64,000 nucleotides of DNA from positions 372,001 through 436,000 of the forward strand of contig NZ_MTCM01000002.1 in NCBI RefSeq assembly GCF_002000245.1, read 5' to 3'. The notes beneath the pieces are model-generated. The model was not told the DNA's origin, searched no databases, and worked only from the letters and a program-made list of their open reading frames with translations. Below are positions 22,703 through 61,297 of this stretch, one piece after another. Both the position numbers and the translations under genes were made by a program. Positions within the stretch are counted from its first letter, which is position 1, and every line of letters begins with the position of its first letter. The DNA is from Sphingobacterium sp. CZ-UAM (GTDB lineage Bacteria; Bacteroidota; Bacteroidia; Sphingobacteriales; Sphingobacteriaceae).

Positions 22703-24886
<2,184 letters not shown>

Positions 24887-32739: not shown

Positions 32740-32874
32740 TTTTAGGTTATTAAATGTTTGTTTTTAATATTTCAATGGATAGTTTAAGTTGATTTTTTTG
32801 TTGAAACCCATGCATACATATAGCCTAGTCGAAGACTATATCTGCGTAGGATCAGTAGCTTTGTTATTTAATTT

Positions 32875-34846: not shown

Positions 34847-34850
34847 GAAC

Positions 34851-41692: not shown

Positions 41693-41708
41693 TTAACAAA
41701 GAAAATTT

Positions 41709-44230: not shown

Positions 44231-45109
44231 CTACAGATCCATTTCTTTTCGAAACTCGCGTGGTGTTTTGTTCATAATGGATTTAAAAAACTTATTGAAG
44301 TTGGTCAGATTTTGATAACCACATTCGTAGCAAATCTCCGATATGCTAAGCGTCCGGTCCATGAGCAGTTTACAGGCATGGCCAATGCGCATCTCATTGA
44401 CAAAGCGAGAAAATGTTTTCTGGGTATGACGTTTGAAAAAACGACAGAAGGCATTGGGCGTCATATTGAGCATATCGCTGGCAACTTGAAGATTAACTTC
44501 CTCTTTAAAGTTGCTTATCACATAAAGGTAAACCTTATTAATGCGTTGGGTCTCCTGTTCTCCAAAGGTTGGGCGATAACCGTCGGAAGCTAAACTTTCA
44601 AATTCAGCTGTTTCCTGTAGCAACTGAATAAGGCTGAGAAATTCGATGATTTTTGGAAATCCTTCTTTATCACTGAGTTTTTCCATTAAGCGCTGTGCCT
44701 TATCGAGTGTTTCACCATAAAAACGAAGTCCACGTTGAGCCTTGCGGATAAAATGCTGCATAGCCTGAATTGTCTGATGTTCATCGGTCAATCGAAGTAA
44801 AAAATCGGCAGGAAAATAGACAACAATTGCACGGGCACGTAACTGATTTCCCTGTTGTAGAAATGAATCATCATTACGCCAGATATGTGGAATATTTGGT
44901 CCCATCAGTACAAGATCACCTTCTGTAAACGTTGCTACGTTGTTGCCGACTATGCGCTTGCCGAAACTTTCCACGATCAGCACCAACTCACAGAGCTCGT
45001 GAAAGTGCAGCGGATTGCTCAAAAATTCCTGATCGACCAATTTGACATGGATTGTCTTTTCGCTGGGTGGCGTAAGTTCAATAAATTGAGGTTTGGATAA
45101 TTTGTTCAT
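44231..45109 (-). CDS. AraC-family transcriptional regulator
   Basis: 292 residues: N-terminal cupin-like sensing domain (LHFHELCELVLIVESFGKRI, GDLVLMGPNIPHIW), helical linker, and C-terminal double HTH (VASDMLNMTPNAFCRFFKRH, ISEICYECGYQNLTNFNKFF). Cupin-AraC regulators respond to a small sugar in the cytoplasm. It is divergent from the GH2-symporter-sugar-acid operon, with 216 bp between the starts, and is the likely activator of that operon. Confidence 0.92.
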   Translation of the reverse strand: MNKLSKPQFIELTPPSEKTIHVKLVDQEFLSNPLHFHELCELVLIVESFGKRIVGNNVATFTEGDLVLMGPNIPHIWRNDDSFLQQGNQLRARAIVVYFPADFLLRLTDEHQTIQAMQHFIRKAQRGLRFYGETLDKAQRLMEKLSDKEGFPKIIEFLSLIQLLQETAEFESLASDGYRPTFGEQETQRINKVYLYVISNFKEEVNLQVASDMLNMTPNAFCRFFKRHTQKTFSRFVNEMRIGHACKLLMDRTLSISEICYECGYQNLTNFNKFFKSIMNKTPREFRKEMDL

Positions 45110-45325: not shown

Positions 45326-48295
45326 ATGAAAAAACTAAAAAAACTGGTGGTGTTGGCTTTGTGGGGGGTAATGGGGAGCTGGGCAATGGCGCAGCAGGCG
45401 GCTTATCAGTTGCCGGCCAAAGTGACTGGTCTGAAAGCTCCTGTACAATCCTTAAATGGCCAATGGAATTTCAAATTTGATCGCGGTTCGGCTTGGGAAA
45501 ATATTCAGGTTCCCGGGGAAGCTGTCATGCAGGGCTATGGTATTCAACACGACCAATCTATTTTTTATAGACGCAAATTTTTAGTACCCAGCCAGTATGA
45601 GGGAAAAAAGACGATCATTCGTTTTGATGGTGTGTATAGCTTTACCAAACTGAGCATCAATGGTAAAGCGGTGACAAGTCATCATGGTGGATTTACACGT
45701 TGGGAAGTAGATATTACACCTTATGTGATTTTCGGAAAGCAGAATGAAATTGAGCTTGAAGTACAGGATCAACTGGATGATATTTCTTATGCATCGGGCT
45801 ATGCACACCATCCGATAGGTGGGATCTTGCGGGATGTGACTTTATTTGCAACAGCGGCACATCCTGTGACCGACTTTAACATCGAAACAGCCTTTGACGC
45901 GTCGTATACCGACGCGCAGCTAAAATTGGATTTTGGCGGTTTTGTGGCCAAAGGGGCTACGATTACGTATACATTGACTGATCCGAACGGCAAAAGTATT
46001 ATCTTGGATAATCCTGAAAAACCAATTGTAGCGGGGGCCAACAGCCATGTGTTCCGTGTAGCTGCACCGCTAAAATGGGATGCCGAGCATCCAAATCTTT
46101 ATCGGTTGGATGTGGAAGTGAAAGAGCAGGGGAGGTCTACGTATGCCTTTCATAAATCGGTTGGGTTCCGCGAAGTAAAAGTGGTTAAAGACCAGCTTAT
46201 GGTAAACGGCAAACCTGTCAAGCTACGTGGCGCCAATAGGCACGATATGCACCCGACCTTAGGACGCAGTGCTTCGGCCTATTACGATAGCTTAGACGTT
46301 CAATTGTTTAAAGAAGCCAATATTAATTTTATCCGTACCTCGCATTATCCGCCCACAGAACGTTTCGTCGAATATTGCAACCAGTACGGTATCTATGTGG
46401 AAGTAGAGACTGCGATCTGTTTTGTGGATACTTATAGGCAAAAAAATTATGCACCCGGCGCCTCACAAAACGATCCGAAAAAGACGGATCAATACCTAAG
46501 TCAATCGCGTGAGATGGTCAATACCTTTAAAAGCCATCCAGCTGTACTTTTCTGGTCCATCGGCAATGAATCAATCTACGGCGACAACTTTAAGCAAAGT
46601 CACGACTTGGTGAAGCGCATGGATCCGACAAGACCCCTTATCTGGAGTTATCCGGGCTCTCAAACCACCGAACCTAAGATTTATGAACTTCTGAGCATGC
46701 ATTATCAGGACGTGTATGGTAACTTGACACAGTATGGCAAGACCACGCGTAACTTTGAGGGACATGGCATCCCGGCTTTATTCGATGAATGGGCTCATCC
46801 GGCCTGTTACACGTATAAAACCTTACAGGATGATCCGAATATCCGTGAATTTTGGGGAATCTCCATGGACATGATGTGGGGTGGGTTGTTTCCGAAGCAA
46901 GGGGGCCTTGGTGGTGCAATATGGGGCTATGTGGATGAGGTATTTATGATTCCACAGCAGCTGAAGAAGGGGACTGCTTTTTGGAAGGAATTTTCCCGTA
47001 CCGCCAAACCTGAAGATTTTCAGGGACAGGCGGTAGGTTACGGTGAATGGGGGATCGTCGATGTTTGGCGGCGCAAGAAACCTGAATTTTGGTCCACAAA
47101 AAAAGCGCAGTCTCCTGTATTGGTCACGTTGAAAGGAAAGATAATACCTGATTTTGCCCGCTTTCAGCCACTGACGATTCCCGTATACAATCGATTTGAT
47201 CATACTTCGCTCGAGGAAATTAAATTGGAATACACCTATGACGGAAAGACCTATACCCTAGGATTACCCAATATCGCACCGCATGAGAAAGGATATATTC
47301 AACTACCTGGTTTAGCTTGGCAACGGGGGGAACAACTGGCTTTGCGCTTTGTGGATAGCAAAGGGATGATACTGGATAGCTACCGTTATCATTTGGGAGA
47401 GCGTACTATTAAAATGCCTGAATCGACTCAGAATGGAGGTATTCAGCTTATTGAAGATTCTGGTCATTATCTGATTAAAGGCGAGGATTTTAACTTCCCG
47501 ATTTCAAAAACAACAGGTTTGATTGAAAATGCAACAATTGGCGGTAAAGTAGTTATACAAAAAGGTCCTTTCTTAAACATGGATATTAACCTCAATCATC
47601 TGACTGGTGCTGAAGTCCGCAAAAGTGCAAGCAAATACCTGCTCGAAGATAAAAATTGGCAATTGAGCAAGTTGGATGTACGCATCAAAGACAATTTGGC
47701 CCTGGTCTCGATTACGGGAAAAAATGGCAGTTTATCCATCCAGTTCGATCTAACTATAGATGGTAAAGGAGAAATGAAGACTTTATATCATACCCAGGGG
47801 GAGCCCAATGGCTACCTGCGCGAGATCGGAATTAAGTATTATCTCAGCAATGAACTCGATCGTATTACCTGGAGCAGAAATGGTTATTGGAACGATTATC
47901 CCCAAGAATCATTTGCGGGCAATGAAGGGGCGGCTAGCTTGTCTTATGTAGGTAACGCACAGTATGGCCAAGAGCCTAAGCAGCCATGGTACATGGATAC
48001 GCACAACTATTATTATTGGGCAGATAAAGGTGCACGCAGTCAGCATCCACTAACGCAGCAAGCAAAGGGAATGAAAGAGAATATATACTACTACTCCTTG
48101 GGTAGAGGGACAAAGGACCTCATGCATGTGGTTTCTCCATTGGGCGACAATGCTTGTCGTATGGATCGCCTGGAAAATGAACAGTTGGTTTTGTATGTAA
48201 ACAACAAATGGGATTATCCGGAAATTGCCTGGGGCAATTATTGCAAGACCTTGGAAGCTTCACCCTGTCAGGGAGCTATCACATTAAAATTCTAA
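45326..48295 (+). CDS. Secreted GH2 glycoside hydrolase, beta-galactosidase-like (first of two paralogues)
   Basis: 989 residues with signal peptide (ending AMAQQ). Jelly-roll domain (40-180), Ig-like domain (180-285), TIM barrel from VNGKPVKLRGANRHDMHP with acid/base Glu415 (FWSIGNES) and nucleophile Glu487 (ALFDEWAHP), then Ig-like and a C-terminal beta-sandwich of the beta-galactosidase small-chain type (about 700-989). Full-length similarity to the GH2 at 50654 shows they are paralogues. It likely removes a beta-linked terminal sugar such as galactose. First gene of the operon driven from the AraC intergenic region. Confidence 0.92.
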   Translation: MKKLKKLVVLALWGVMGSWAMAQQAAYQLPAKVTGLKAPVQSLNGQWNFKFDRGSAWENIQVPGEAVMQGYGIQHDQSIFYRRKFLVPSQYEGKKTIIRFDGVYSFTKLSINGKAVTSHHGGFTRWEVDITPYVIFGKQNEIELEVQDQLDDISYASGYAHHPIGGILRDVTLFATAAHPVTDFNIETAFDASYTDAQLKLDFGGFVAKGATITYTLTDPNGKSIILDNPEKPIVAGANSHVFRVAAPLKWDAEHPNLYRLDVEVKEQGRSTYAFHKSVGFREVKVVKDQLMVNGKPVKLRGANRHDMHPTLGRSASAYYDSLDVQLFKEANINFIRTSHYPPTERFVEYCNQYGIYVEVETAICFVDTYRQKNYAPGASQNDPKKTDQYLSQSREMVNTFKSHPAVLFWSIGNESIYGDNFKQSHDLVKRMDPTRPLIWSYPGSQTTEPKIYELLSMHYQDVYGNLTQYGKTTRNFEGHGIPALFDEWAHPACYTYKTLQDDPNIREFWGISMDMMWGGLFPKQGGLGGAIWGYVDEVFMIPQQLKKGTAFWKEFSRTAKPEDFQGQAVGYGEWGIVDVWRRKKPEFWSTKKAQSPVLVTLKGKIIPDFARFQPLTIPVYNRFDHTSLEEIKLEYTYDGKTYTLGLPNIAPHEKGYIQLPGLAWQRGEQLALRFVDSKGMILDSYRYHLGERTIKMPESTQNGGIQLIEDSGHYLIKGEDFNFPISKTTGLIENATIGGKVVIQKGPFLNMDINLNHLTGAEVRKSASKYLLEDKNWQLSKLDVRIKDNLALVSITGKNGSLSIQFDLTIDGKGEMKTLYHTQGEPNGYLREIGIKYYLSNELDRITWSRNGYWNDYPQESFAGNEGAASLSYVGNAQYGQEPKQPWYMDTHNYYYWADKGARSQHPLTQQAKGMKENIYYYSLGRGTKDLMHVVSPLGDNACRMDRLENEQLVLYVNNKWDYPEIAWGNYCKTLEASPCQGAITLKF

Positions 48296-48305: not shown

Positions 48306-49937
48306 ATGTTGGCTTGGATTGATCAAATCATTTATCTGCTGTATTTTATTGTTGTCGGCGGCTATGGCTATTACATTTATCGACGCAAACAGAGTTCGGG
48401 TTCACTAACGCACGACTATTTTCTGGCGGAAAGTTCCTTAAGCTGGTGGGCAATCGGGGCTTCTATTATTGCTTCGAATATCTCTGCGGAGCAATTTATA
48501 GGGATGTCGGGCTCGGGTTTTGCGCTGGGACTGGCCATTGCATCCTATGAATGGATGGCTGCTATCGGACTAATTATTGTGGCGGTCGTGTTTTTACCCA
48601 TTTATCTGAAGAATAAGATTTTTACCATGCCTGGGTTTCTGCGTAAGCGTTTCGATCCACGGGTGAGTATGGTGATGGCTGTATTCTGGGTCTTGGTCTA
48701 TGTGTTTGTCAATTTGACCTCGATACTTTATCTGGGTGGTTTGGCCATTCAGTCGATTGCGGGGATTCCCATGGTTATAGCGGTTTGGTCACTGGCGGTA
48801 TTGGCCTTGATCATCGCCCTGGGCGGGATGAAGGTAATTGGCTACACCGACGTGATTCAGGTGGTCTTGTTGATTATAGGCGGGCTCACGACGACCTATA
48901 TCGCCCTCGATCTCGTGGCGCATACAAAGGGCATGGGACATTGGATGGACGGACTCCTTATCTTGAAAACGGAGGTGCCACAGCATTTTCATCTCTTTAT
49001 CGAAAAAGGACAGATGATAAAACCCGATGGTACCGATGCTTATATGGATCTGCCCGGATGGTCGGTTCTATTGGGTGGCATGTGGGTGATCAATCTATCG
49101 TATTGGGGATGTAATCAATATATTACCCAGCGTGCACTGGGAGCCAAAAATCTAAAAACAGCCCAAAATGGGATGTTGTTTGCAGCCGTGATGAAGCTGT
49201 TTATGCCCTTAATTGTGGTGCTGCCCGGCATTGCCGCTTATTATTTATACAAAGAAGGCTCAAATTTGAATTTTGCCCAGGGAATGCTTGAAGACAGTAC
49301 CGTGAAGCCCGATAAAGCTTATCCGCTGCTACTCTCGATTTTACCGACGGGCTTCAAAGGATTGGCTTTTGCAGCTTTAACGGCTGCTATCGTGGCCTCG
49401 CTGGCTGGAAAGGTTAATAGTATCGCAACGATTGTGTCTTTGGATATTTATAAAAATATAAAAGGCGATGCCGTGAGCGATACAGCTTTGGTGAAGCTGG
49501 GCAAAGTAACTGTACTGATTGCCTTGGTCATTGGTGCCTCCTTGGCTCCGCTATTGCAGCATCTGGATCAGGGCTTTCAGTTTATTCAGGAGTTTACAGG
49601 TTTTATCACACCGGGCGTATTGGCGATTTTTCTGATGGGTATCTTTACAACTTGGACAACACCTAACGCAGCATTTGCTGGTGCCATTTCTACATTTGCC
49701 TATTCTTTGCTCTTTAAAAATTTCTGGTTAGATCAAAGTCCCTTTATGAATCGCATTCTTGTGGTGTTTATATGTACCATAGCAACGATGGTATTGGTCA
49801 GCCTGCTGGGCAATCGAAACTATCGTAATGATACAGTAATCGTGAATAGAAATCTTTTTGTGACCTCCAGTGGTTTCAAATTAGTGAGTTTATTCATCCT
49901 GGGCGTATTGGTAGCCCTGTATGTCTTTTTGTGGTAA
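48306..49937 (+). CDS. Sodium:solute symporter (SGLT-like sugar transporter)
   Basis: 543 residues, about 14 transmembrane helices. Family signatures: ESSLSWWAIGASIIASNISA followed by EQFIGMSGSGFALG near the N-terminus, and GLAFAALTAAIVASLAGKVN in the middle with the sodium-site small residues. It imports the monosaccharide or acid sugar released by the flanking GH2 enzymes. It starts 10 nt after the first GH2 gene. Confidence 0.93.
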   Translation: MLAWIDQIIYLLYFIVVGGYGYYIYRRKQSSGSLTHDYFLAESSLSWWAIGASIIASNISAEQFIGMSGSGFALGLAIASYEWMAAIGLIIVAVVFLPIYLKNKIFTMPGFLRKRFDPRVSMVMAVFWVLVYVFVNLTSILYLGGLAIQSIAGIPMVIAVWSLAVLALIIALGGMKVIGYTDVIQVVLLIIGGLTTTYIALDLVAHTKGMGHWMDGLLILKTEVPQHFHLFIEKGQMIKPDGTDAYMDLPGWSVLLGGMWVINLSYWGCNQYITQRALGAKNLKTAQNGMLFAAVMKLFMPLIVVLPGIAAYYLYKEGSNLNFAQGMLEDSTVKPDKAYPLLLSILPTGFKGLAFAALTAAIVASLAGKVNSIATIVSLDIYKNIKGDAVSDTALVKLGKVTVLIALVIGASLAPLLQHLDQGFQFIQEFTGFITPGVLAIFLMGIFTTWTTPNAAFAGAISTFAYSLLFKNFWLDQSPFMNRILVVFICTIATMVLVSLLGNRNYRNDTVIVNRNLFVTSSGFKLVSLFILGVLVALYVFLW

Positions 49938-49959
49938 CATGATTTAATTGATATAAAAA

Positions 49960-50667
49960 ATGAAAGAAAACTATCTGGTGGAATGGGCAAATGATGAGGA
50001 GCTCTTTGAGCTGATCCGTAAGGAACTTTTTACAGCTGTCATTGGGGACGTCATGGATAAAATGGGATTGTTCCATCAATTTCTACCACCGAGTATAAGA
50101 CCGCTAAAATCCGATCTGTTTTTAATAGGCAGAGCAATGACGGTATTGGAAGCTGATGTCTGCGGGAATGCTGAAGAGCAATCGAAAAATCCGGTGCTGT
50201 CAAAATCATTTGGATTTATGCTTGAAGCCTTGGATGATCTGCGCCCGGGCGAGGTTTACATTTGCAGCGGCTCTTCGCCGGACTATGCGCTTTGGGGTGA
50301 AATCATGAGTGCAAGAGCAAAAGCATTGGGTGCGCATGGCGCGATTGTCAATGGCTACTCAAGAGACACCGTCGGGATCTTGGCGTTGGATTTTCCTTGT
50401 TTTTCCATGGGCTGTTATGCGCAGGATCAGGCACCGAGAGGCAAGGTTATTGACTGGCGTGTACCAATCCGATTTGGAAATGTCCTGATCAAGGATGGCG
50501 ATATGCTGATCGGCGATATTGATGGTGTCTGCGTAGTACCGCGCGAATATGAACAGGAGGTTTTCGCTCGGGCATTTGAAAAAGCCAGAGCTGAAAAAGT
50601 AGTATTGAACAAGGTTATGGAAGGCATGGGTGCCAAAGAAGCATTTGAAAAATATGGAATTATGTAA
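49960..50667 (+). CDS. RraA-like aldolase (HMG/CHA aldolase fold)
   Basis: 235 residues. Glu114-x20-Arg135-Asp136 (from GEIMSARAK to NGYSRD) matches the D/E-x20-RD metal and substrate motif of pyruvate aldolases of the RraA group. Other markers are AVIGDVMDKMG at the start, GAHGAIVNG and IGDIDGVCVVP. In catabolic clusters these proteins cleave 4-hydroxy-2-oxo acids to pyruvate plus an aldehyde or keto acid; the regulatory RNase E inhibitor is a different branch. Together with the dehydratase, SDR and SMP-30 genes downstream it could perform the final cleavage. It overlaps the second GH2 gene. Confidence 0.85.
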   Translation: MKENYLVEWANDEELFELIRKELFTAVIGDVMDKMGLFHQFLPPSIRPLKSDLFLIGRAMTVLEADVCGNAEEQSKNPVLSKSFGFMLEALDDLRPGEVYICSGSSPDYALWGEIMSARAKALGAHGAIVNGYSRDTVGILALDFPCFSMGCYAQDQAPRGKVIDWRVPIRFGNVLIKDGDMLIGDIDGVCVVPREYEQEVFARAFEKARAEKVVLNKVMEGMGAKEAFEKYGIM

Positions 50668-53560
50668 GGTCAAATTATCCAAAGGAAGCTGGTTGGCGCT
50701 GTTGTTGGCCTGTTCCAGCTTAGGAAATCTATCTGCGCAACAAGGTGGACAATTTTTGACGCCCTTGCCTGATCAATTGGTTATGACTAAAACCAGCCGC
50801 ATTCCTTTGAATGGACAATGGAATTTTAAGGTGGCCGACGCTAAACCCGTGGCCATTCAAGTACCTGGAGAATGGGAAATGCAAGGCCAACATGTTGCTC
50901 CGGGCGAAACCGCAGTGTATGAACGCTCATTTGACATGCCTGATGATTGGGAAGGCAATCCAGTATATATCCGCTTTGACGGTGTCAGTTCACATGCGCT
51001 TGTGAAAGTTAACGATCAGCTGGTCGGTGAACATGAAGGGGGATTTGTAGCTTTTCAGGTCGATCTGACCGGAAAAGTTAAGAAGGGTAAAAATAAACTG
51101 ACTGTAGAAATTCAGGCCAATACTATCAGTGATATTCTCTCCTGTGTATCTCAGTATGCGGCACATACTGTGGGTGGAATTTTGCGCAAAGCGACTTTGT
51201 TTACCGTGCCTAAGGTGCATATTTCGGATGCGCAGGCCGTCACAGATTTTGACTCAAAATATATTCATGCAACGCTCAAACTTGCAGGCTTGGTTCAAAA
51301 CAGTTCTAACCAGAAGCAACAGGTTTCACTGCGTTATGTGCTTAAAGATAGCAATGGAAAAATAGTTGTTGAAAAATCATCCGACCAGATTCAGCTTGGG
51401 GGAGGGAGTCATAAGCAGATCGAAAGTCTATTGACGGTGAAAAAGCCGATGCACTGGTCGGCCGAAACGCCTTACCTCTATGTGTTGGAAACAGCGCTGA
51501 TGGTGGATGGCAAGACCGTACAGATCAACATACAAAAAGTTGGATTTCGGGAAATTGAAGTGCTCAAAAATCAGTTGATGGTGAATGGTAAACCTGTCAA
51601 ATTGAAAGGAGTGAATAGGCATGCTGTACATCCGTTGAACGGTAGGGCTTCTGATCCAGCAATTGATCGGCAGGATGTTGTTTTATTTAAACAAGCCAAT
51701 GTCAACTATATCCGCACCTCGCACTATCCACCATCGGAAGAGTTTTTGAATGCAGCGGACGAGTTAGGTATGTATGTGGAGAGTGAGGCGGCTTTGAGCT
51801 GGATCCAGCATCATGCCTCACCAATCTGGCGCAAATGGGATTATAAAGACAAGCGTTTCTTGCCTGTCATGCTTGGCGCAAATATCGATAATGTGCTGGG
51901 CAACCGCAATCATCCCTCGATATTATTTTGGTCTTTGGGCAATGAATCGCATTGGAGCCCATTATGGGCGGAAGTCAATGCGCGTGTGAAAGCCTTAGAT
52001 CCAACGCGTCCGACGAGTTTTCATGACCAGACTTGGGGCGGATTTAACAATGGTGGGAGTAAAGCTGATATCGCCAATTACCACTATCCCGGCATTAACG
52101 GACCTAAGGCGACAGATACCATGACAAGACCGACTTTATTTGGTGAATACGCTCATTTGTCCACTTACAACAGGCGTGAACTGCTGACCGACCCCGGTAT
52201 CCGTGAGGCTTATAATGCACCCCTGGTCACTTTTGTTGATTCAATCTATAAACATTCGGCCAACTTGGGTGGCGCAATATGGAGCGGTATTGATGATAGC
52301 TTTCACCTTCCCGACGGACGTATTGTTGGGTATGGCCCTTGGGGTCCAATCGATGGTTGGCGTAGACCTAAACCTGAATATTTTGGCATGAAAAAGGCCT
52401 TTTCGCCCGTCAAGATCAGCACGCCGAAACTGAAGGATGGGAAAGTAGTGGTCGCTATTGAAAACAGATACGATTTTCTTTCGCTTGATCAGCTCAATCT
52501 GTTTGCCATCGTGGATGGCAAACAGATTCCTTTTAAGGCCCCAATCAAACCGCGAACAAGTGGAGAGGTAATATTACCGATTCAAGCTGATTATAGTTCA
52601 TTGCGGATTATTGCTATGGACAATCAGCAAAATGAGGTTGAAAATGAGCTATTTGAGAAAGTTGCTAAATGTCAGGAAAAGTTTTCGGCTACGGAACTAC
52701 AGCTCAAACAAGATTCGGCGTATATTTATGTCAAGCAAGGTATGGTAGATTATACATTCAGCCGAACCTATGGCAAATTGCTCGCTGTCCGAAAAAATGG
52801 GGAGCTGATTCTGACAAAAGGGCCTTCGGTTGCACTTATTGAATCCAATGCCGAGGATGGTGGTAAACCAAACGTGGCGGGGGAAACGTATCAAAATAAC
52901 ATAGCCCCATTGAAACAATATGAGCAATATACATTATTTGCGAATGCCATAGAGGCCAAACAGGCAGGCGACAGTGTAAGTGTTGTTGTGGATCTAACCT
53001 ACCAAAATGGAACAGGAAAGCAAAAATTTATTTTCCTTAAAAATGGCCTTTTACGGGTGGAATATGAGATGAACTATCAACAGGGGAAAGAAATGGATCT
53101 ATATCAATCCGGATTGATGATGGAACTGCCTTTATCTTACGGTAATCTCGCCTGGGCTCGGAATGGAACATTTTCGACCTATCCTGCCAACCATATCGGA
53201 CGTAATGAAGGCGAAGCGACATTGCACGCAGCAGCGCTGTATGAAGTGGAAGAGCACGGCAAGCCTCAGGCGAAAGATTGGAAAGATGATGCCAATATAT
53301 TGGGTTCAAACGACTTTAGGTCGACTAAAATCAATATTTACTGGGCAAGTTTGAAAAGCCCTATGGCAGAGATCAAAGTGATATCTAATGGACATCAGCA
53401 TACACGGGCCTGGAAGCAGGATCAGCATATTCAATGGTTGATAGCTGATTATTCGAATAATGGCTCAGAGCCTTTTTATGGCTCACCGCACAGTTATGGA
53501 CGTAAAAAGCTAAAAAAAGGCGACAAGTTAAGCGGACAGATTATTCTTAAGATAAAATAA
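50654..53560 (+). CDS. Secreted GH2 glycoside hydrolase, beta-galactosidase-like (second paralogue)
   Basis: Start at ATG 50654 (968 aa) preferred over 50630 because it shortens the overlap with the RraA-like gene to 14 bp and trims a charged extension from the signal peptide, which ends LSAQQ. Domain order equals the 45326 paralogue: jelly roll, Ig, TIM barrel (VNGKPVKLKGVNRHAVHP), acid/base Glu431 (FWSLGNES), nucleophile Glu498 (TLFGEYAHL), C-terminal beta-sandwich with ARNGTFSTYPANHIGRNEG. The two probably differ in linkage or aglycon preference. The overlap points to translational coupling with the RraA-like gene. Confidence 0.92.
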   Translation: MELCKVKLSKGSWLALLLACSSLGNLSAQQGGQFLTPLPDQLVMTKTSRIPLNGQWNFKVADAKPVAIQVPGEWEMQGQHVAPGETAVYERSFDMPDDWEGNPVYIRFDGVSSHALVKVNDQLVGEHEGGFVAFQVDLTGKVKKGKNKLTVEIQANTISDILSCVSQYAAHTVGGILRKATLFTVPKVHISDAQAVTDFDSKYIHATLKLAGLVQNSSNQKQQVSLRYVLKDSNGKIVVEKSSDQIQLGGGSHKQIESLLTVKKPMHWSAETPYLYVLETALMVDGKTVQINIQKVGFREIEVLKNQLMVNGKPVKLKGVNRHAVHPLNGRASDPAIDRQDVVLFKQANVNYIRTSHYPPSEEFLNAADELGMYVESEAALSWIQHHASPIWRKWDYKDKRFLPVMLGANIDNVLGNRNHPSILFWSLGNESHWSPLWAEVNARVKALDPTRPTSFHDQTWGGFNNGGSKADIANYHYPGINGPKATDTMTRPTLFGEYAHLSTYNRRELLTDPGIREAYNAPLVTFVDSIYKHSANLGGAIWSGIDDSFHLPDGRIVGYGPWGPIDGWRRPKPEYFGMKKAFSPVKISTPKLKDGKVVVAIENRYDFLSLDQLNLFAIVDGKQIPFKAPIKPRTSGEVILPIQADYSSLRIIAMDNQQNEVENELFEKVAKCQEKFSATELQLKQDSAYIYVKQGMVDYTFSRTYGKLLAVRKNGELILTKGPSVALIESNAEDGGKPNVAGETYQNNIAPLKQYEQYTLFANAIEAKQAGDSVSVVVDLTYQNGTGKQKFIFLKNGLLRVEYEMNYQQGKEMDLYQSGLMMELPLSYGNLAWARNGTFSTYPANHIGRNEGEATLHAAALYEVEEHGKPQAKDWKDDANILGSNDFRSTKINIYWASLKSPMAEIKVISNGHQHTRAWKQDQHIQWLIADYSNNGSEPFYGSPHSYGRKKLKKGDKLSGQIILKIK

Positions 53561-53572
53561 AATAGTAGAGCA

Positions 53573-54739
53573 ATGAAGATTATAGACGTTAAAGTCTGGT
53601 TGGTTGAAGGCGTAAAATACAATTGGACTTTAGTAAAGATTTATACCGATACAGGGCATACTGGTGTTGGTGAAGCGACCAACTGGCCTGGTAGTCCAAT
53701 AGTTTATGAAGCGGCCAAACATGTGGGGCAGCGGATTATAGGCTTGGATCCGATGAAAACAGATTTTATCTGGACCAAACTCTACCGCGATCTCAATTGG
53801 ATCGGACCCTATGGTGCAAGTATGTGTGCCATTTCGGGTATTGACATGGCCTTATTGGATTTGAAAGGTAAGGTGCTTGGGGTACCTTGTTACGAACTGT
53901 TAGGGGGCGCTTTCCGTAAAGAGATTTTGTTGTATGCCAACTATTGGTTTACTGGTGGTGGACATAATCCCGAAGACTATGCGCGACAAGCACGAGCAGT
54001 CAAAGAAGCCGGTTTTACAGGATTAAAATTTGATCCTTTTGCGCATACAAACTACCTTTATGGGGAAGATCTGGCAGCAAATCTGACCCTGACTGCCGAA
54101 CAGCAAGATCTCGCTTTTGAAGTGAGTAAAGCTGTTCGCGAGGGGGTAGGCCCCAATTTTGACATTATGATCGAGACACATGCCATGTTAAATTACCGTG
54201 TCGCTGTACAAATGGCGCAGCGCCTCTCGGAGCTGAATATTACCTGGTATGAGGAACCAGCAGGACCCGAAAATGCCGATAACTTGCGCGCCATGAGGGA
54301 GCGTATTCCCTCGAATGTGTCAATTTGCGTAGGAGAAAGACATTATACCCGCCATGGGATTAGGCCGGTATTGGAAAAAAATATCTGTGACATTATGATG
54401 CCTGATATTACGCGTTGCGGTGGGCCTTCGGAAATGAAGCGTATGGCAACAATGATGGAAGCATATAATGTATTATTGGCACCACATAACCCCAATGGGC
54501 CACTTTCCACCTTGGCCAGTGCGCATGTCTGTGCTTCAGTACCAAATTTCTTCAGACAGGAATTTATGTTCAATGATGTGCCCTGGCGCGATGAAGTCAT
54601 TGATCATTCGATTAAAGATATGGTGAAAAATGGCCATCTGGTCTTGAGCGAAAGACCGGGATTGGGGGTAGATTTGATCGAAGAAGAAATGTTAAAACAT
54701 CCTGGAGTATTGGAACATAGACCGGGGTTTTATGTGTAA
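53573..54739 (+). CDS. Enolase-superfamily acid-sugar dehydratase (mandelate racemase-like)
   Basis: 388 residues. Capping domain 1-120, then the barrel with metal ligands Glu201 (MIETHAML), Glu227 or 228 (WYEEP) and Glu255 (CVGE), and likely base His203 and His305 (LAPHNPNGPLST). The Glu-Thr-His at 201-203 replaces the Asp-x-His seen in DgoD galactonate dehydratase; the LKFDPF strand (151-156) takes the place of the KxK found in racemases. It probably dehydrates an aldonic acid, such as galactonate or fuconate, to the 2-keto-3-deoxy acid. It lies 12 nt after the GH2 gene and 12 nt before the SDR. Confidence 0.9.
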   Translation: MKIIDVKVWLVEGVKYNWTLVKIYTDTGHTGVGEATNWPGSPIVYEAAKHVGQRIIGLDPMKTDFIWTKLYRDLNWIGPYGASMCAISGIDMALLDLKGKVLGVPCYELLGGAFRKEILLYANYWFTGGGHNPEDYARQARAVKEAGFTGLKFDPFAHTNYLYGEDLAANLTLTAEQQDLAFEVSKAVREGVGPNFDIMIETHAMLNYRVAVQMAQRLSELNITWYEEPAGPENADNLRAMRERIPSNVSICVGERHYTRHGIRPVLEKNICDIMMPDITRCGGPSEMKRMATMMEAYNVLLAPHNPNGPLSTLASAHVCASVPNFFRQEFMFNDVPWRDEVIDHSIKDMVKNGHLVLSERPGLGVDLIEEEMLKHPGVLEHRPGFYV

Positions 54740-54751
54740 ATTTAATGTTAA

Positions 54752-55543
54752 ATGGCATTTACAATTGATTTAACAGGCAAGGTTGTCCTGATCACAGGTG
54801 GGATTTCGGGCATTGGGCTGGGGGCGAGCCTGCAATTTGCAGCGGCAGGTGCGACCGTCATAGCCTGTGCTGAATTGGCGTCAGATGATCAGGCTGTGGT
54901 TTCATTTGTTTCGGCAATGGAACCTTATCGGCAACGTACATTTTATTATAAAGCCGATGTGTCCAACGAGACAACTCTTAAAGAACTGGTCGTGCTCCTT
55001 CAACAGGAGCACGACCGTTTGGATATACTGGTATCGAATGCCGGACAGAATATCTTTAAGGGCCTGGATAATTGCACGCTAGCGGATTGGAACCAGAACA
55101 GCAGTTTGAACCTTGCATCTCATTGGTTGTTGGCGAGAGCGCTAAAACCGTTACTGGCACAAGCTTCACCGGGAGTGATTATTGTCATGGCTTCCAACCA
55201 TGCTTACGCCTCCATCCCAGGTTGTTTTCCTTATAACGTAACCAAAGGAGCGCTCCTTTCACTTGTTAGGGCTATGGCGATCGAATGGGCCCCAACTATT
55301 CGTACCGTAGGGCTTGCGCCGGGCTTTATAGACACTCCCGGCAATCAAAAATGGTTTGACAGCTTTCCTGATGCTGATGTCGAAAGACAAAAGACGGTGG
55401 GTAGACATCCCGTCAAGAGACTCGGAACGCCCGAGGAGATTGGCGGCTGGTGTGTTTTCCTTTCCAGTACCTATGCTTCCTTTGCAAATGGAACTACCTA
55501 TTTAATTGATGGTGGACGAAGTGCATTGATGCAGGAAGATTAA
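54752..55543 (+). CDS. Short-chain dehydrogenase/reductase (SDR)
   Basis: 263 residues: Rossmann motif TGGISGIG (15-22), NAG (96-98), catalytic Ser148, Tyr161, Lys165 (YNVTK) and the C-terminal NGTTYLIDGG. Fits sugar-1-dehydrogenases (fucose, galactose, arabinose type) that make an aldonolactone. The coding sequence holds a perfect 12-bp hairpin (54988-54999 with 55005-55016), and its last ~40 bases are part of an imperfect tandem duplication that continues past the stop. Between dehydratase and lactonase genes; most likely NAD(P)-dependent sugar oxidation. Confidence 0.9.
   Translation: MAFTIDLTGKVVLITGGISGIGLGASLQFAAAGATVIACAELASDDQAVVSFVSAMEPYRQRTFYYKADVSNETTLKELVVLLQQEHDRLDILVSNAGQNIFKGLDNCTLADWNQNSSLNLASHWLLARALKPLLAQASPGVIIVMASNHAYASIPGCFPYNVTKGALLSLVRAMAIEWAPTIRTVGLAPGFIDTPGNQKWFDSFPDADVERQKTVGRHPVKRLGTPEEIGGWCVFLSSTYASFANGTTYLIDGGRSALMQED
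54988..55016. repeat. Perfect inverted repeat inside the SDR coding sequence
   Basis: Arms GGTCGTGCTCCT (54988-54999) and AGGAGCACGACC (55005-55016) around TCAAC. Codes for LVVLLQQEHDRL, a surface helix in SDRs. It is G+C-rich and has no T-tract. Confidence 0.7.
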
Positions 55544-55625
55544 CTCCAAGTGAACTCGCCGATCTTATAAATGGTGGGCGATACTTTGATATAAGAAGAT
55601 AAACCTCAAGAAGAAATTGCCGATC
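55502..55625 (+). repeat. Imperfect tandem duplication at the 3' end of the SDR gene
   Basis: Unit 1 (55502-55564) covers the last 13 or so codons of the SDR and its stop; unit 2 (55565-55625) follows directly. Shared landmarks in the same order: ATGGTGG(A/G)CGA, TTGAT, GAAGAT(T/A)AA, CTCAAG-like, GCCGATC at the end of both. The old SDR reading can still be followed in unit 2 as INGGRYFDIRR next to IDGGRSALMQED in unit 1. Confidence 0.65.
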
Positions 55626-55642
55626 AGGTCAGGCATAATAGA

Positions 55643-56527
55643 ATGGTGATGGAAAAGAATTTAAAAGAAGCACGGGTCTTATTGGATATTCCCTGCCAGC
55701 TGGGAGAAGGAATGATGTGGAGTAAGAGGGAAAGATGTTTGTATTGGGTGGATATTTTGGACAAGCGCATCCATTCTTATCATTTGAAAAGTAAAGAGTC
55801 GGCCTGTTGGGATTTGCCCAGTTATGTGAGTAAGATTGTACCCTGGCCGGACGGATCGGGTAAGTTTCTTGTGGCCATGCAGCGGGGACTGGCTGTTTGG
55901 ACAAAGGAAACGCAAGATTTGACAGTCGTAGCCGAGCTGGATTCAAGGGACGGTCAAATTCGTACCAACGACGGTGGAATAGATCCCGAGGGCAATTTTT
56001 GGTTCGGAACGATGCATATGCAAGCGCTGTCCGGTCAGGGAAAACTGATGCGTTTCCGCAACGGTATCTTGGAGACTGTTATTCCGGAAGTTACGATTCC
56101 CAACGGCATCGTATGGCCCAACAATAGCCCTTATTTTTACTTTATAGATACCTATACGCGAGAAATACGTCGTTATGCTCGGCCTGCCGCACTTGACACG
56201 ATTAGGAAAGCCGGCAACACATTCAGCACCTTACTACGGGTGCCCGAGGAGTTAGGCATGCCGGATGGCATGTGTATAGGCCCTGATGGACATCTTTGGG
56301 TAGCGCATTGGGGCGGTTTCGCAGTCTGCAAATGGCATATTGAGACGGGCGAATTGCTGAATAAAATAGAGGTGGATGCACCTCATGTGACTTCCTGTTG
56401 TTTTGGCGGCCCTACAGGTAGCGATGTGTTTATAAGCACGGCTAGAGAGGGGCTGACTAACGAACAATTGGAATCCTTTCCTGACAGTGGAAAAGTATTT
56501 CATTTTAATTTAAGCGAGGGGAAATAG
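55643..56527 (+). CDS. SMP-30 / gluconolactonase / LRE-family lactonase
   Basis: 294 residues, six-bladed propeller of the regucalcin type. Metal ligands fit: Glu22 (LGEGMMW), Asn in IPNGIVW and Asp in GMPDGMCIG; RTNDGGIDPEGNFWFGTM is the family signature. No signal peptide, so cytoplasmic. It should open the aldonolactone made by the SDR. An in-frame ATG at 55649 is an equally good start. The gap of 99 nt to the SDR is partly filled by the tandem duplication. Confidence 0.92.
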   Translation: MVMEKNLKEARVLLDIPCQLGEGMMWSKRERCLYWVDILDKRIHSYHLKSKESACWDLPSYVSKIVPWPDGSGKFLVAMQRGLAVWTKETQDLTVVAELDSRDGQIRTNDGGIDPEGNFWFGTMHMQALSGQGKLMRFRNGILETVIPEVTIPNGIVWPNNSPYFYFIDTYTREIRRYARPAALDTIRKAGNTFSTLLRVPEELGMPDGMCIGPDGHLWVAHWGGFAVCKWHIETGELLNKIEVDAPHVTSCCFGGPTGSDVFISTAREGLTNEQLESFPDSGKVFHFNLSEGK

Positions 56528-56730
56528 TCTAATAAATGTTGATAATGTTCAATTATTAGTCGCTAATTCTCTTTTTGTGCTACACCTAAATTTTTACGCC
56601 AATTAGTATAGCTGTAAACAAAAGTTTATTTATTTTAAACATATAGTAATCTTTAAAATATTGACTACTTTATGGTTTTTCAATAGGCAATTGGTTGTTT
56701 TTGAAGATGATATGATTTAATTACTGAATT
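56528..56730. other. Intergenic, 203 bp
   Basis: A+T-rich gap between the lactonase and fucosidase genes; no hairpin or clear promoter element seen. The fucosidase may have its own promoter here or be read through from the operon. Confidence 0.3.
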
Positions 56731-58980
56731 ATGAAAGAGAAATTGATGTTTGCAATTTGTGTAAGTAGCTTTCTTACACCTGTCTTCGCACAGAAACAAG
56801 TCGAATCGCCTGCGCTAGTGTTTAAAAATACTTATGCTATAAATCCCCATGATGGTCCCAACGATATTATCGCCAAGGCGGTGCATATTGTGCCGACGGA
56901 TAAACAATATGAGGCGTTGAAAGATGAATTTATCGCCTTCATACATTTTGGCCCCAATACATTTACGAAAATGGAATGGGGGAGTGGAAAGGAAGATCCC
57001 AAGATATTTGATCTCAAAAATCTGGATACGGATCAATGGTGCGCTGCTATGAAATCTGCTGGCATGAAGAAAGTGATCTTCACAGCTAAGCACCATGATG
57101 GATTTGTTCTTTGGCAAAGCCGCTATACAAAGCACGGTATTATGTCTACGGGATTTCAGCATGGTAGGGGTGATATTTTAAGGGAGCTTTCACAATCATG
57201 CAAAAAATATGGGCTTAAACTGGGCGTATATCTTTCTCCTGCCGATCTTTATCAGATTGAAGATGCGAAAGGGCTCTATGGTAATCAAAGTGCTTATACG
57301 GAGCGTACTTTTCCAACTCCGGTAGCGGGCAGGCCCTTTAAAGACAAGCGAACATTTCGCTATAAGGCGGACGATTATAATGCTTATTTTCTGAATCAAC
57401 TCTTTGAATTATTAACTGAATATGGACCTATTCATGAAGTCTGGTTTGATGGTGCGCATCCAAAAACAAAGGGTGGTCAACAATATAATTATGCGGCTTG
57501 GCGAGATTTGATTTCCAATTTGGCACCTAAAGCGGTTGTTTTTGGTAAAGAAGATATTCGTTGGTGTGGCAATGAATCCGGTAAAACGCGAAGTACCGAA
57601 TGGAATGTGATTCCATTTGATGCAGACCCCATTAAAATGGAAGGTTTTCGTGATCTGACAGAGGAGGATCTGGGCAGTAGGGAAAAATTGTTTGACGCGA
57701 AGTTTTTACATTACCAACAAGCCGAAACCAATACATCGATCCGAGAGGGGTGGTTTTATCGCGATGATGTTTTTCAGAAAGTACGATCGGCAGATGATGT
57801 ATTTGATATCTATGAACGTTCGGTAGGTGGCAATTCGACTTTTCTCCTAAATATTCCACCCAATCGTGAGGGACGTTTCTCGGATGAAGATGTAAACGTA
57901 TTGAAAGCCGTGGGCGAGCGAATTCAATCGAGCTATAAAGACAACTTGCTCCGGGGGAGCGACCTCGACAAATCTCTTTTGGATAATAACGATAAAACAA
58001 ATAAAATATTTCATGCGGCGACTGGGGAGCTTATAATTTCGTTGCCACATCAAATTAAATTGAATCGGTTTGTGATTCAAGAGGCTGTACATAGCAGTGG
58101 CGAACGGATAGAACAGCATGCGCTTGATATCTGGCAAGATGGTCATTGGCAGCAGATCGTGACGGCCACGAATGTCGGATATAAACGAATTTTGCGGTTT
58201 CCGACACAAGAGACAAGTCGGATCCGACTCCGCGTGCTAGGGAGCCGCGCCAATCCAGTGTTGGGCAGTCTAGGGGCTTATTATGTGCCTACACGACCGC
58301 CCGAACTGCACATCGCAAGGAATAAGGCAGGCAAAATAGCTATAACACCTGCGAAAAGTGAATTTGGCTGGAAACCACATCATGAGGACGTTCTCAAAAA
58401 CCTCAATAGCACCTTTGAGATTTACTATACAGAGGATGGTACGGTGCCTTCAGCAGCTTCGCATAAATATATGGCTGAATTTGAAAGCAATGGTCATCTA
58501 ATTAAAGCTGTCGCAATTGATAAGGATGGAGAAAAAGGAGCAATTGCACAGAAAGAACTTGGGATTCCCAAACTAGCTTGGCAACTGCAGTCGGTAAGTA
58601 GTACAATGGATGGCAAGAACGGTCGTGAAGCCTTTGACGAGCAGGACGATACCTATTGGCTGTCAAACGCGACTGGCCCCTCACAAGAACTGGTGGTCGA
58701 TTTGGGGGCTGATTATTCCATAGCTGCATTTAGCTATACACCGCAACGCAAAAATGCCGAAGGTATGATGCAATCGGGAGCGATATCGGTTAGCCGGGAT
58801 GGTACGCATTGGGAAGATACAGAGAGCTTCGAGTTTGGTAATTTGATCAATGATCCGTCTACACGCACATACCGGTTTAAAAGTGTAAAAAATGCACGTT
58901 TTGTAAAAATAGCATCTACGGTGATTGCCGGAAACGGTAAATCCTTAGCCATAGCGGAGTTTGATTTTTTCAAGCCTTGA
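56731..58980 (+). CDS. Secreted GH29 alpha-L-fucosidase with C-terminal carbohydrate-binding domain
   Basis: 749 residues with signal peptide (ending PVFAQ). GH29 TIM barrel with FTAKHHDGFVLWQS (117-130) and nucleophile Asp240 (HEVWFDGAHP). After the barrel and a beta-sandwich (about 400-520), a chitobiase-like segment (FEIYYTEDGTVPSAAS) and an F5/8 type C-like discoidin domain (about 625-749, DDTYWLSNATGPSQELVVDL) follow. The layout resembles the GH29 subfamily B enzymes that act on alpha-1,3/1,4-fucose. It would supply L-fucose to the sugar-acid route encoded just upstream (inference). The acid/base residue cannot be fixed by eye. Confidence 0.92.
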   Translation: MKEKLMFAICVSSFLTPVFAQKQVESPALVFKNTYAINPHDGPNDIIAKAVHIVPTDKQYEALKDEFIAFIHFGPNTFTKMEWGSGKEDPKIFDLKNLDTDQWCAAMKSAGMKKVIFTAKHHDGFVLWQSRYTKHGIMSTGFQHGRGDILRELSQSCKKYGLKLGVYLSPADLYQIEDAKGLYGNQSAYTERTFPTPVAGRPFKDKRTFRYKADDYNAYFLNQLFELLTEYGPIHEVWFDGAHPKTKGGQQYNYAAWRDLISNLAPKAVVFGKEDIRWCGNESGKTRSTEWNVIPFDADPIKMEGFRDLTEEDLGSREKLFDAKFLHYQQAETNTSIREGWFYRDDVFQKVRSADDVFDIYERSVGGNSTFLLNIPPNREGRFSDEDVNVLKAVGERIQSSYKDNLLRGSDLDKSLLDNNDKTNKIFHAATGELIISLPHQIKLNRFVIQEAVHSSGERIEQHALDIWQDGHWQQIVTATNVGYKRILRFPTQETSRIRLRVLGSRANPVLGSLGAYYVPTRPPELHIARNKAGKIAITPAKSEFGWKPHHEDVLKNLNSTFEIYYTEDGTVPSAASHKYMAEFESNGHLIKAVAIDKDGEKGAIAQKELGIPKLAWQLQSVSSTMDGKNGREAFDEQDDTYWLSNATGPSQELVVDLGADYSIAAFSYTPQRKNAEGMMQSGAISVSRDGTHWEDTESFEFGNLINDPSTRTYRFKSVKNARFVKIASTVIAGNGKSLAIAEFDFFKP

Positions 58981-59152
58981 TTTTGAGTTGGAGCGTTTTG
59001 AAAGTGCTGGTAGGCCAACTGAAGAACTTGCGACTGGAATATTATCCGGAGAAAAATAATTAAAACTATTTTCCGATCAGCCTTGTTCGTAGATTGAATA
59101 GATATAAAGATGGATAAGAATTCGTAGGTTAATTAAAGGATAGTTTTTTTGG

Positions 59153-59182
59153 AGGCCGGAGCAAAATTGCTCCGGCCTTTTT
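59153..59182 (+). terminator. Intrinsic terminator downstream of GH29 gene
   Basis: Perfect 12-bp stem (59153-59164 with 59167-59178, AGGCCGGAGCAA / TTGCTCCGGCCT) followed by TTTTT. Confidence 0.85.
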
Positions 59183-59371: not shown

Positions 59372-59379
59372 TAACTTTG
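59372..59379 (+). promoter_or_regulatory. Bacteroidota -7 element (TAACTTTG) before second sigma gene
   Basis: Exact TAnnTTTG match, 48 nt before ATG 59428. This supports the shorter start: the in-frame ATG at 59377 would lie inside the promoter element. Confidence 0.45.
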
Positions 59380-59427
59380 CAAAAATCCTTTGGAAATCCG
59401 ATATCGCGTACATATAATCAATGCGTC

Positions 59428-59973
59428 ATGAAAGAACTGTCTGATAAGGAACTGTTTGATATTGTAAAAGATAACAATACCCAGGCATTTTCGGTGTTGT
59501 TTGATCGCCATGGAAATACATTGCTAAGCTTTATCTTAAAACGGATTGGCTCAATTACAGATGCGGAAGATATCCTTCAGGACGTTTTTGCCTCTTTGTG
59601 GAACCGGCGCCATAAAATCGAAATTGAGGATTCAATCTATCCTTACCTTTTCAAAGCGGCTAAATATGAGGTAATTGACTGGATGATCAAGGATCAAAAG
59701 CGGATCACGCATTTCGAGCGACTTGTGCTTCCATTGGAAAATGAACCCCTCGGCGAAAGCAATAGCGATGAGAAACTCATGGTGCAGGAACTATCATTGA
59801 TGCTGGATCATGAAATCGCCAAAATGCCTACAACCATGCAGTCGGCATTCAATCTCAGCCGTGTGGAAGGCCTGAGCATTAAGGAAATCGCTTTCCGTCT
59901 ATCCATCTCTGAGCAGACTGTCAAAAATAATATCTCCCTGGCTTTAAGTCGCTTAAAGCTGAAAACAAAATAA
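59428..59973 (+). CDS. ECF RNA polymerase sigma factor
   Basis: 181 residues from ATG 59428 (MKELSDKELFDIVKD). Region 2 (DAEDILQDVFASLWNRRHKI, YPYLFKAAKYEVIDWMI) and region 4 (MPTTMQSAFNLSRVEGLSI, KEIAFRLSISEQTVKNNISL) are complete. It should be held by the FecR at 60025 and drive the STN-SusC operon at 61298 once the receptor is occupied. Its region 2 resembles the truncated sigma at 8533. Confidence 0.93.
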   Translation: MKELSDKELFDIVKDNNTQAFSVLFDRHGNTLLSFILKRIGSITDAEDILQDVFASLWNRRHKIEIEDSIYPYLFKAAKYEVIDWMIKDQKRITHFERLVLPLENEPLGESNSDEKLMVQELSLMLDHEIAKMPTTMQSAFNLSRVEGLSIKEIAFRLSISEQTVKNNISLALSRLKLKTK

Positions 59974-60024
59974 AAATCATTTTTTTTCGGTACTTCTAAA
60001 GTTTATCTGGGGTTATATAAATAT

Positions 60025-61125
60025 ATGACAGAAGATAATCAAAGAGAGCAGGCTCAAAAATTACTGAAAAAATATCTCAACGGAGAATGTAATCCGGATG
60101 AAGAAAGGATGGTAAGCGAATGGTTCTTTTCACTTGATGAAGAACCTGCAGTTCCAGCCATGGAAAAGGAGGCGGCATTGGCACGCGCCAAAAATGTGCT
60201 GATGCACAAATTTGAAGGTGAGATAAATAAGGTAAAACCCAAAAGCAATGTGTTTACCCTTAAACGGATAGCCATAGCTGCTTCAGTTCTTTTTGCATTA
60301 ACGACAACGTTTTTACTGCTGCATCAAAAACAGAAAAGCACTGTACCACAGCTTGCCGCAATTACCGCAGATACTTCAGGCATGTTTAAGAATGATATCC
60401 TCCCGGGGGAGCGCTTTGCTAAACTATCCAATGAACGTGGAGAAACGCAGTTATTGGGAAAGGAAACTCAACCCGAAAATGTAAAACCCGACTTATTTAA
60501 AGGTAATCTCACATTGGAAGTTCCGGCTGCAGGCACTTATAGTGTCGTGCTGAGCGATGGAACAACAGTTTGGTTGAACGCTGCTTCTAAATTAGAATAT
60601 CCGGATCAATTTGTTGGTGACGAACGCAGGGTGAAGCTGGTAGGTGAGGCCTTTTTCCAGGTGGCCAAAGATGCCAGCAGACCTTTCCGCATCGAAGTCG
60701 AAAAATCCGTTATCGAAGTACTCGGTACCAGCTTTAATGTAAATGCTTACCAAAAGGAAATCAGTACCTCCTTGGTGGAAGGTAAGGTGAAAATTATGAG
60801 CCAAGGGCACGAGGCTTATCTTTCTCCAGGAAATGAAGCGATCATCAGTGTCGATAAAATACGGGTACAGCCTGCTGATATACAAAAGAACACGGCCTGG
60901 CAACGTGGTGAATTTTTATTGGATGGAAGTAGCTTCGAAGAGATTATCAACCAGATTTCGCGATGGTATAATGTGGATTTTGTCAATGCCGAGAGCATTA
61001 GCCTGGACAATCGGTTTAATGGAACACTCAGTAGGGAATCCAGACTTTCGGAGGTCTTGAAAATTCTGTCGTACACAACAAACCGAAAGTTTGAGATCGA
61101 TGGACGGCGTATCGTCATTCATTAA
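60025..61125 (+). CDS. FecR-family anti-sigma factor
   Basis: 366 residues: cytoplasmic N-terminal region, transmembrane helix at about 82-99, FecR domain (LSDGTTVWLNAASKLEYPDQ, GEAFFQVAKDASRPFRIEV, VLGTSFNVNAY) and DUF4974-type C-terminus (IINQISRWYNVDFVN, LKILSYTTNRKFEIDGRRIV). Stands 51 nt after its sigma gene and 172 bp before a SusC with an STN domain, the canonical signalling order. The STN domain of the receptor should contact the periplasmic part of this protein. Confidence 0.94.
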   Translation: MTEDNQREQAQKLLKKYLNGECNPDEERMVSEWFFSLDEEPAVPAMEKEAALARAKNVLMHKFEGEINKVKPKSNVFTLKRIAIAASVLFALTTTFLLLHQKQKSTVPQLAAITADTSGMFKNDILPGERFAKLSNERGETQLLGKETQPENVKPDLFKGNLTLEVPAAGTYSVVLSDGTTVWLNAASKLEYPDQFVGDERRVKLVGEAFFQVAKDASRPFRIEVEKSVIEVLGTSFNVNAYQKEISTSLVEGKVKIMSQGHEAYLSPGNEAIISVDKIRVQPADIQKNTAWQRGEFLLDGSSFEEIINQISRWYNVDFVNAESISLDNRFNGTLSRESRLSEVLKILSYTTNRKFEIDGRRIVIH

Positions 61126-61208
61126 TACACTTAATTTTTTACCAATTAAAATTTATAAAATATGATATAACCAGACGAATTAACCAAAAGGTCCAATACA
61201 ATAGTAAA

Positions 61209-61228
61209 GGGGATGTTGACGCATCCCC
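61209..61228 (+). promoter_or_regulatory. Hairpin between FecR and STN-SusC genes
   Basis: Stem GGGGATG / CATCCCC (61209-61215 with 61222-61228) with TTGACG loop, no T-tract. It may be an attenuator or an mRNA processing/stability element separating regulator and receptor expression. Confidence 0.4.
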
Positions 61229-61297
61229 TGTTGTAAAGAGCCAAATTTATTGAAGTGCGAATTCTATAGATTATTAAACCCTTAACAATTCAAAGTT

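Follow-up and report, generated by a model that had tools for sequence, protein, structure and literature searches.

An RraA-like protein as the probable final aldolase of a glycan-linked oxidative sugar operon in Sphingobacterium

Several described systems resemble parts of an operon that we found in a 64,000-nt stretch (hereafter, the window) of the 5.84 Mb genome of Sphingobacterium sp. CZ-UAM. The operon joins LacZ-like enzymes of glycoside hydrolase family 2 (GH2) to a symporter, an RraA-like protein, an acid-sugar dehydratase (DHT), a short-chain dehydrogenase (SDR), and an SMP-30 lactonase. The acid part of the De Ley-Doudoroff galactose pathway, encoded by the E. coli dgo operon, shares with it the logic of galactose/galactonate oxidation and a dehydratase of the D-galactonate dehydratase (GalD) type with the same catalytic positions. 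However, the 2-keto-3-deoxy-galactonate (KDGal) kinase and 2-keto-3-deoxy-6-phosphogalactonate (KDPGal) aldolase that accompany the dehydratase in that pathway are absent from the window locus, where an RraA-like protein stands in their place and the genes are linked to GH2 enzymes and a glycan locus. Non-phosphorylating sugar-acid pathways (the Dahms type and the L-rhamnonate route with YfaU) likewise use a dehydrogenase, a lactonase, and a dehydratase, followed by direct cleavage to pyruvate and an aldehyde, but their aldolases are of the DHDPS or HpcH type, whereas the last step in the window is predicted for a structurally unrelated aldolase family.

Two further systems resemble the RraA-like protein itself. 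The 4-hydroxy-4-methyl-2-oxoglutarate/4-carboxy-4-hydroxy-2-oxoadipate (HMG/CHA) aldolase of the LigK/GalC type (PDB 3noj) has the same fold, the same R-D pair with an acidic residue 21 positions earlier, and class II pyruvate aldol cleavage, the reaction predicted here; unlike it, the window protein has sugar-acid rather than aromatic-ring-cleavage neighbours, and the two are only 25% identical. Likewise, the FlDet pathway of Flavobacterium sp. UMI-01 is a Bacteroidota glycan pathway in which an RraA-family enzyme takes a 2-keto-3-deoxy sugar acid as substrate (PMC8563752).

We consider it fairly probable that the operon encodes a glycan-linked route that degrades one aldose oxidatively, with the RraA-like protein as its final class II aldolase. 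Exported GH2 enzymes would release the sugar, helped in some strains by GH95 or GH29 enzymes that remove side branches, and the symporter would bring it into the cell. The SDR would oxidise the aldose at C1 to a lactone, SMP-30 would open the lactone ring to give the aldonate, and the DHT would remove water by GalD-type His/His chemistry to give a 2-keto-3-deoxy acid. The RraA-like protein, with its HMG/CHA-aldolase fold, would then act as a metal-dependent class II aldolase and split this acid to give pyruvate and an aldehyde. We infer these reactions, the substrate, and the role of the RraA-like protein as final aldolase from gene content, gene order, conservation, partner diversity, catalytic residues, and motifs, all of which were read directly from sequence.

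Metal motif and genomic partners of the RraA-like protein

Among solved structures, 5ir2, 3k4i, and 3noj are the closest by sequence, and an AlphaFold2 (AF2) model of the protein (pLDDT 81.6) shows the alpha-beta-beta-alpha RraA fold and matches the same three entries in Foldseek with probability 1.00. The window protein carries E114-X20-R135-D136. The R135-D136 pair is present in 72/72 RraA sequences, while position 114 is Glu in 65/72 and Gly in the other seven; as all seven carry Glu at 139 (G-X20-R-D-X2-E), an acidic residue is always found at 114 or 139. The metal motifs reportedly described by Mazurkewich and colleagues in 2014 are D-X20-R-D and G-X20-R-D-X2-E/D, so that the first motif has Glu in this subfamily where the form reported there has Asp. 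A paper that cites this work states that most homologues hold one of two metal-binding motifs and are likely class II pyruvate aldolases (PMC5065237). The curated models for 4-carboxy-4-hydroxy-2-oxoadipate aldolase scored the protein at 68.2 bits (cutoff 179) and 62.3 bits (cutoff 304.5), and the model for the RNase E regulator RraA at 35.3 bits (cutoff 136). As these scores fall below the cutoffs, we file the protein neither as an HMG/CHA aldolase nor as an RraA regulator. A role in RNase E regulation was rejected on model score and genomic context.

Homologues were searched in GTDB genome contigs, plasmid records, and 395 genomes of the phylum, and the RraA alignment was searched in 400 genomes of the order. 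The subfamily is present in 49 of these 400 genomes, and the claim in the sequence-only reading that an RraA-like aldolase would be uncommon does not hold. The neighbourhoods of 71 RraA loci were scored by tblastn; three came from duplicate genomes, leaving 68 distinct loci, which were compared with 40 control regions of 20 kb each, taken from the same set of genomes. An acid-sugar dehydratase lies within about 10 kb in 59/68 loci vs 0/40 controls. The other operon families are also common near RraA: SDR (55/68 vs 2/40), GH2 (46/68 vs 2/40), the AraC homologue (40/68 vs 0/40), SMP-30 (28/68 vs 0/40), and the symporter (18/68 vs 1/40), the last being absent in some relatives, such as L054. GH95 occurs in 13/68 loci vs 1/40 controls, sometimes inside the operon. 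Homologues of DgoK, HpcH, and FAH were found in 0/68 loci, and DHDPS and Eda in one locus each, DHDPS apparently in a separate cluster. In the 44 distinct loci with a DHT orthologue, RraA always lies upstream on the same strand and nothing but GH2 or GH95 genes intervenes, and GH2 is found in 42 of the 44; because the RraA-DHT order is constant, the gene arrangement goes far beyond what chance would give. Between genera of the family, the DHT is unusually conserved (mostly 86-91%), and the adjoining SMP-30 and SDR drop to about 30-63%.

Many of the 68 loci are akin to one another, and the diversity of dehydratase partners is therefore a stronger argument than the counts. Five kinds of dehydratase accompany the subfamily. 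The GalD-like DHT (type A) is found in Sphingobacteriaceae, a Cytophagales metagenome-assembled genome (MAG; L027), Phocaeicola massiliensis (L043), and a Sphingomonadaceae MAG (L026), among others. UxuA adjoins RraA (type B) in Ensifer/Sinorhizobium (including L045) and in L051; a GD_AH (UxaA-like) enzyme (type C) accompanies it in L128, which also has UxaC, and in L049; and an IlvD-family enzyme (type D) occurs in L033, a Candidatus Eisenbergiella MAG. A second mandelate-racemase branch (type E) accompanies RraA in marine Bacteroidota, together with SDR, RidA, and creatininase family genes. Sugar-acid dehydratases of these kinds share one type of product, a 2-keto-3-deoxy acid, and the simplest reading is thus that the RraA-like protein would consume it.

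Locus L033 adds a second line of evidence. There, a gene fusing SMP-30 to SDR is followed by an IlvD-family dehydratase, RraA, and GH2; the fusion is one 547-aa open reading frame (ORF) at 6638-8281, and it connects the SDR with lactone opening. The five kinds of dehydratase partner, this fusion, and the universal metal motif together make a 2-keto-3-deoxy-acid aldolase the best reading of the RraA-like protein.

Two groups of relatives deserve mention in their own right. In Bacteroidota loci L028, L030, L036, and L038, RraA occurs with an SDR, a different mandelate-racemase-family enzyme, RidA, and a creatininase-family protein, which may replace the lactonase. A Paenibacillus uxuA adjoining an RraA-family gene has been interpreted as part of a lignin-fragment pathway (PMC12673573); the UxuA-RraA neighbourhoods of L044-L046 offer another reading, a role in sugar-acid metabolism.

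Exits from the 2-keto-3-deoxy acid

Several observations weigh against the RraA-like protein as the final aldolase, or against a single oxidative route. FlDet dehydrates and decarboxylates 2-keto-3-deoxy-glucarate (KDGR) and did not act on 2-keto-3-deoxy-gluconate (KDG) or its 6-phosphate (KDPG) (PMC8563752), so possession of the RraA fold is not enough to define the reaction. No dehydratase lies near RraA in 9/68 loci, including those of Acidobacteria, Vibrio, and Variovorax, and the subfamily may therefore have further roles. The IlvD-family protein of L033 scores above the NCBIfam cutoffs for ordinary dihydroxy-acid dehydratase, and its presumed part in a sugar-acid pathway is thus read from its position. 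The genome also encodes GalK and AraA, which would give a second route for D-galactose or L-arabinose, and no PF02595 glycerate kinase that could serve the aldehyde branch was found in it. Finally, a PfkB kinase and an Eda-type aldolase lie side by side on contig C5 of this genome, and in L101 (3284-5003) the same RraA-DHT-SDR-SMP30-SSS operon runs on into a KDG-kinase-like PfkB and an Eda-type aldolase.

The last two findings bear on a semi-phosphorylating route, in which the DHT product would pass to a PfkB-type KDG/KDGal kinase and then to the Eda-type aldolase on C5, leaving the RraA-like protein an accessory role such as decarboxylation or removal of side products. The L101 pair is 53% identical to the C5 pair, and phosphorylation of the keto-deoxy acid is possible in view of this in-operon pair and its C5 homologues. 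These genes speak most strongly against RraA as the sole exit, and both exits may coexist in L101. A haloarchaeal RraA-family gene also lies in a mannanase/manD cluster with a predicted KDG kinase/KDPG aldolase route (PMC10963439). However, both genes are nearby in only 1/68 loci, whereas RraA is the constant partner of dehydratases. The C5 pair is accompanied by an MFS transporter gene, which is compatible with a separate hexuronate locus, and a family search of the genome found no DgoK. We therefore regard the semi-phosphorylating route as unlikely.

The sequence-only reading had proposed a chain from sugar through lactone, aldonate, and 2-keto-3-deoxy acid to pyruvate and an aldehyde, with no kinase or KDPG-type aldolase. 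The gene order fits this chain as far as the keto-deoxy acid, and the last step is favoured by the place of RraA beside dehydratases and by its universal metal motif, while a phosphorylating route may also run through pairs such as those of C5 and L101. The locus indeed lacks a kinase and a KDPG-type aldolase, but both are encoded elsewhere in the genome, and both occur in the related operon of L101. Four DHDPS-family genes also lie elsewhere in the genome.

Likely substrate of the pathway

When aligned to E. coli DgoD, the DHT keeps the metal ligands (E201, E227 or E228, and E255), the catalytic H203 and H305 (H185 and H285 of GalD), and the dyad partner D278. It scores below the curated models for D-galactonate dehydratase (231.4 vs a cutoff of 311, and 234.1 vs 750). 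The DHT is related to D-galactonate dehydratase, with all GalD catalytic positions kept, and its specificity is a prediction. In place of the KxK base of L-fuconate dehydratase, which sits where the second barrel strand ends and was not found in the DHT, it has K152-x-D154, and KxD is present in 7/7 DHT-type sequences aligned. According to Yew and colleagues in 2006, L-fuconate dehydratase reportedly uses the KxK lysine as base; L-fuconate is a 2S acid. Since the two GalD-type His residues are kept and KxD replaces the S-specific lysine, the expected substrates of the DHT are 2R acids, for example D-galactonate, D-gluconate, L-arabinonate, or D-xylonate.

These residues also bear on an oxidative L-fucose route, in which L-fucose would be converted through L-fuconate to 2-keto-3-deoxy-L-fuconate and cleaved by RraA into pyruvate and L-lactaldehyde. 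Such a route would agree with the GH29 gene in the window, with GH95 in 13 of the related loci, including inside the operon, and with the failure of a family search to find a fucose isomerase in the genome. The KxD motif and GalD-type His residues of the DHT argue against it, and GH29 is no commoner near RraA than elsewhere (4/68 loci vs 3/40 controls). L-fucose, named as a possible substrate in the sequence-only reading, was demoted after the residue check, and we hold this route to be quite improbable. GH29 was likewise dropped as a substrate clue, as it is neither enriched in related loci nor conserved in orthologous ones; the conserved glycosidase partner is GH2, often also with GH95.

The GH2 enzymes offer a further clue. 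The LacZ catalytic and pocket residues E461, E537, H357, H391, H540, and W568 are kept in 71/71 associated GH2 sequences, while position 201 has Ser (70 sequences) or Thr (one) instead of Asp, and all 71 lack positions 597, 601, and 604, in the loop with F601 and N604. With D201 replaced and this loop gone, the Na+ site that binds the galactose 6-hydroxyl is absent, and the target is possibly a galacto-configured sugar that lacks the 6-hydroxyl or is substituted there. Other GH2 galactosidases may also be without the Na+/C6 site. Overall, the substrate is more likely galacto-configured; it most likely gives a (2R,3S)-aldonate, with D-galactose or a galacto-configured relative as the first candidate.

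The least credible alternative is a FlDet-like role, in which a uronate would be oxidised to an aldarate and RraA would dehydrate and decarboxylate a 2-keto-3-deoxy-aldarate to alpha-ketoglutarate semialdehyde: FlDet is indeed an RraA-family enzyme of a flavobacterial oxidative pathway, but the locus has no semialdehyde dehydrogenase, the DHT resembles aldonate dehydratases rather than glucarate dehydratase, the GH2 proteins are LacZ-like, and the 19 N-terminal residues printed for FlDet do not resemble the conserved N-terminus of the RraA subfamily.

Returning to the aldolase reading, a broader proposal can be made, to which we give a little under even chances: the RraA subfamily would comprise uncharacterised, cross-phylum, non-phosphorylating 2-keto-3-deoxy-aldonate aldolases that stand beside unrelated dehydratases and, in Bacteroidota, are tied to a GH2 clade that has lost the C6/Na+ site of LacZ; the sugar oxidised may then have the galacto configuration and be one that is closed to the Leloir route. 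We found no publication of an RraA-type 2-keto-3-deoxy aldolase activity in a search that missed most subscription papers. If the proposal is true, genes mostly annotated as "RraA family protein" or "ribonuclease regulator" would acquire a defined metabolic function, gaps at the end of oxidative sugar pathways would be closed in many Bacteroidota and Proteobacteria, and a further fold of metal-dependent aldolase would become usable for sugar-acid chemistry. The default naming of such genes as RNase regulators or aromatic-acid aldolases would then call for caution.

Gene layout and surroundings of the operon

The symporter, SDR, SMP-30, dehydratase, RraA-like, GH2, and GH29 genes lie on one strand, as the sequence-only reading had stated and as ORFs and Pfam families confirm; all named ORFs are intact, full length, and co-oriented from GH2a through GH29. 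In a GTDB genome contig search, the closest orthologous contigs to the window were those of Sphingobacterium.

Table 1. Genes of the operon and its immediate neighbours, with positions in the whole window and families confirmed by Pfam.
Feature	Position	Strand	Support and remarks
AraC-family regulator	44231..45109	-	Pfam HTH_18/HTH_AraC; divergent from the operon
GH2a, LacZ-like glycoside hydrolase, signal peptide (by eye)	45326..48295	+	Pfam; LacZ-type PDB matches
Na+/solute symporter, SSS family	48306..49937	+	Pfam SSF; TIGR00813 above cutoff
RraA-like protein, proposed class II 2-keto-3-deoxy-aldonate aldolase	49960..50667	+	Pfam Aldolase/RraA
GH2b, LacZ-like glycoside hydrolase	50654..53560	+	Pfam; PDB matches; start codon context
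DHT, enolase-superfamily acid-sugar dehydratase, GalD-like	53573..54739	+	Pfam MR_MLE
SDR, proposed aldose 1-dehydrogenase	54752..55543	+	Pfam adh_short; YxxxK at 161-165, Ser upstream
SMP-30/SGL lactonase	55643..56527	+	Pfam SGL; nearest PDB 7plb, SMP-30/Cgr1 family protein
GH29 alpha-L-fucosidase (alpha-1,3/4-fucosidase-like)	56731..58980	+	Pfam Alpha_L_fucos; PDB 4zrx, 3mo4

The earlier view that these genes form mostly one operon holds. The gaps are mostly short (GH2a-SSS, 10 bp; SSS-RraA, 22 bp; GH2b-DHT and DHT-SDR, 12 bp each), RraA and GH2b overlap because the GH2b ATG at 50654 precedes the RraA stop, and the SDR-SMP30 gap is 99 bp. GH29 probably lies outside the core transcript, as a gap of 203 bp separates it from SMP-30. 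A strong stem-loop of 13 pairs is present at 59151-59180, 3' of GH29; it is the only element used from the promoter and terminator scans, in which counts were similar to those in shuffled sequence.

The window contains other loci. Two of them were recognised from sequence: a SusC/SusD-like pair lies upstream of the operon at 38507-43577, and past the stem-loop (59377-64000) an ECF-type sigma factor, a FecR-like anti-sigma factor, and a SusC homologue open a separate glycan locus. A probable phosphonate catabolism cluster on the minus strand (31843-35939) contains a PhnX-like HAD hydrolase (169 bits, below the NCBIfam cutoff of 219), an alcohol dehydrogenase of the phosphonate-associated type (TIGR03366; 284, below the cutoff of 328), a phosphate-ester-type MFS transporter, and a type I phosphodiesterase-family protein. 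A starch-type utilisation locus at 9371-24886 comprises a SusR regulator (above cutoff), a BamB-like propeller protein, SusC, SusD, SusE, a GH13 cyclomaltodextrinase, a histidine kinase/LytTR pair, and GH97.

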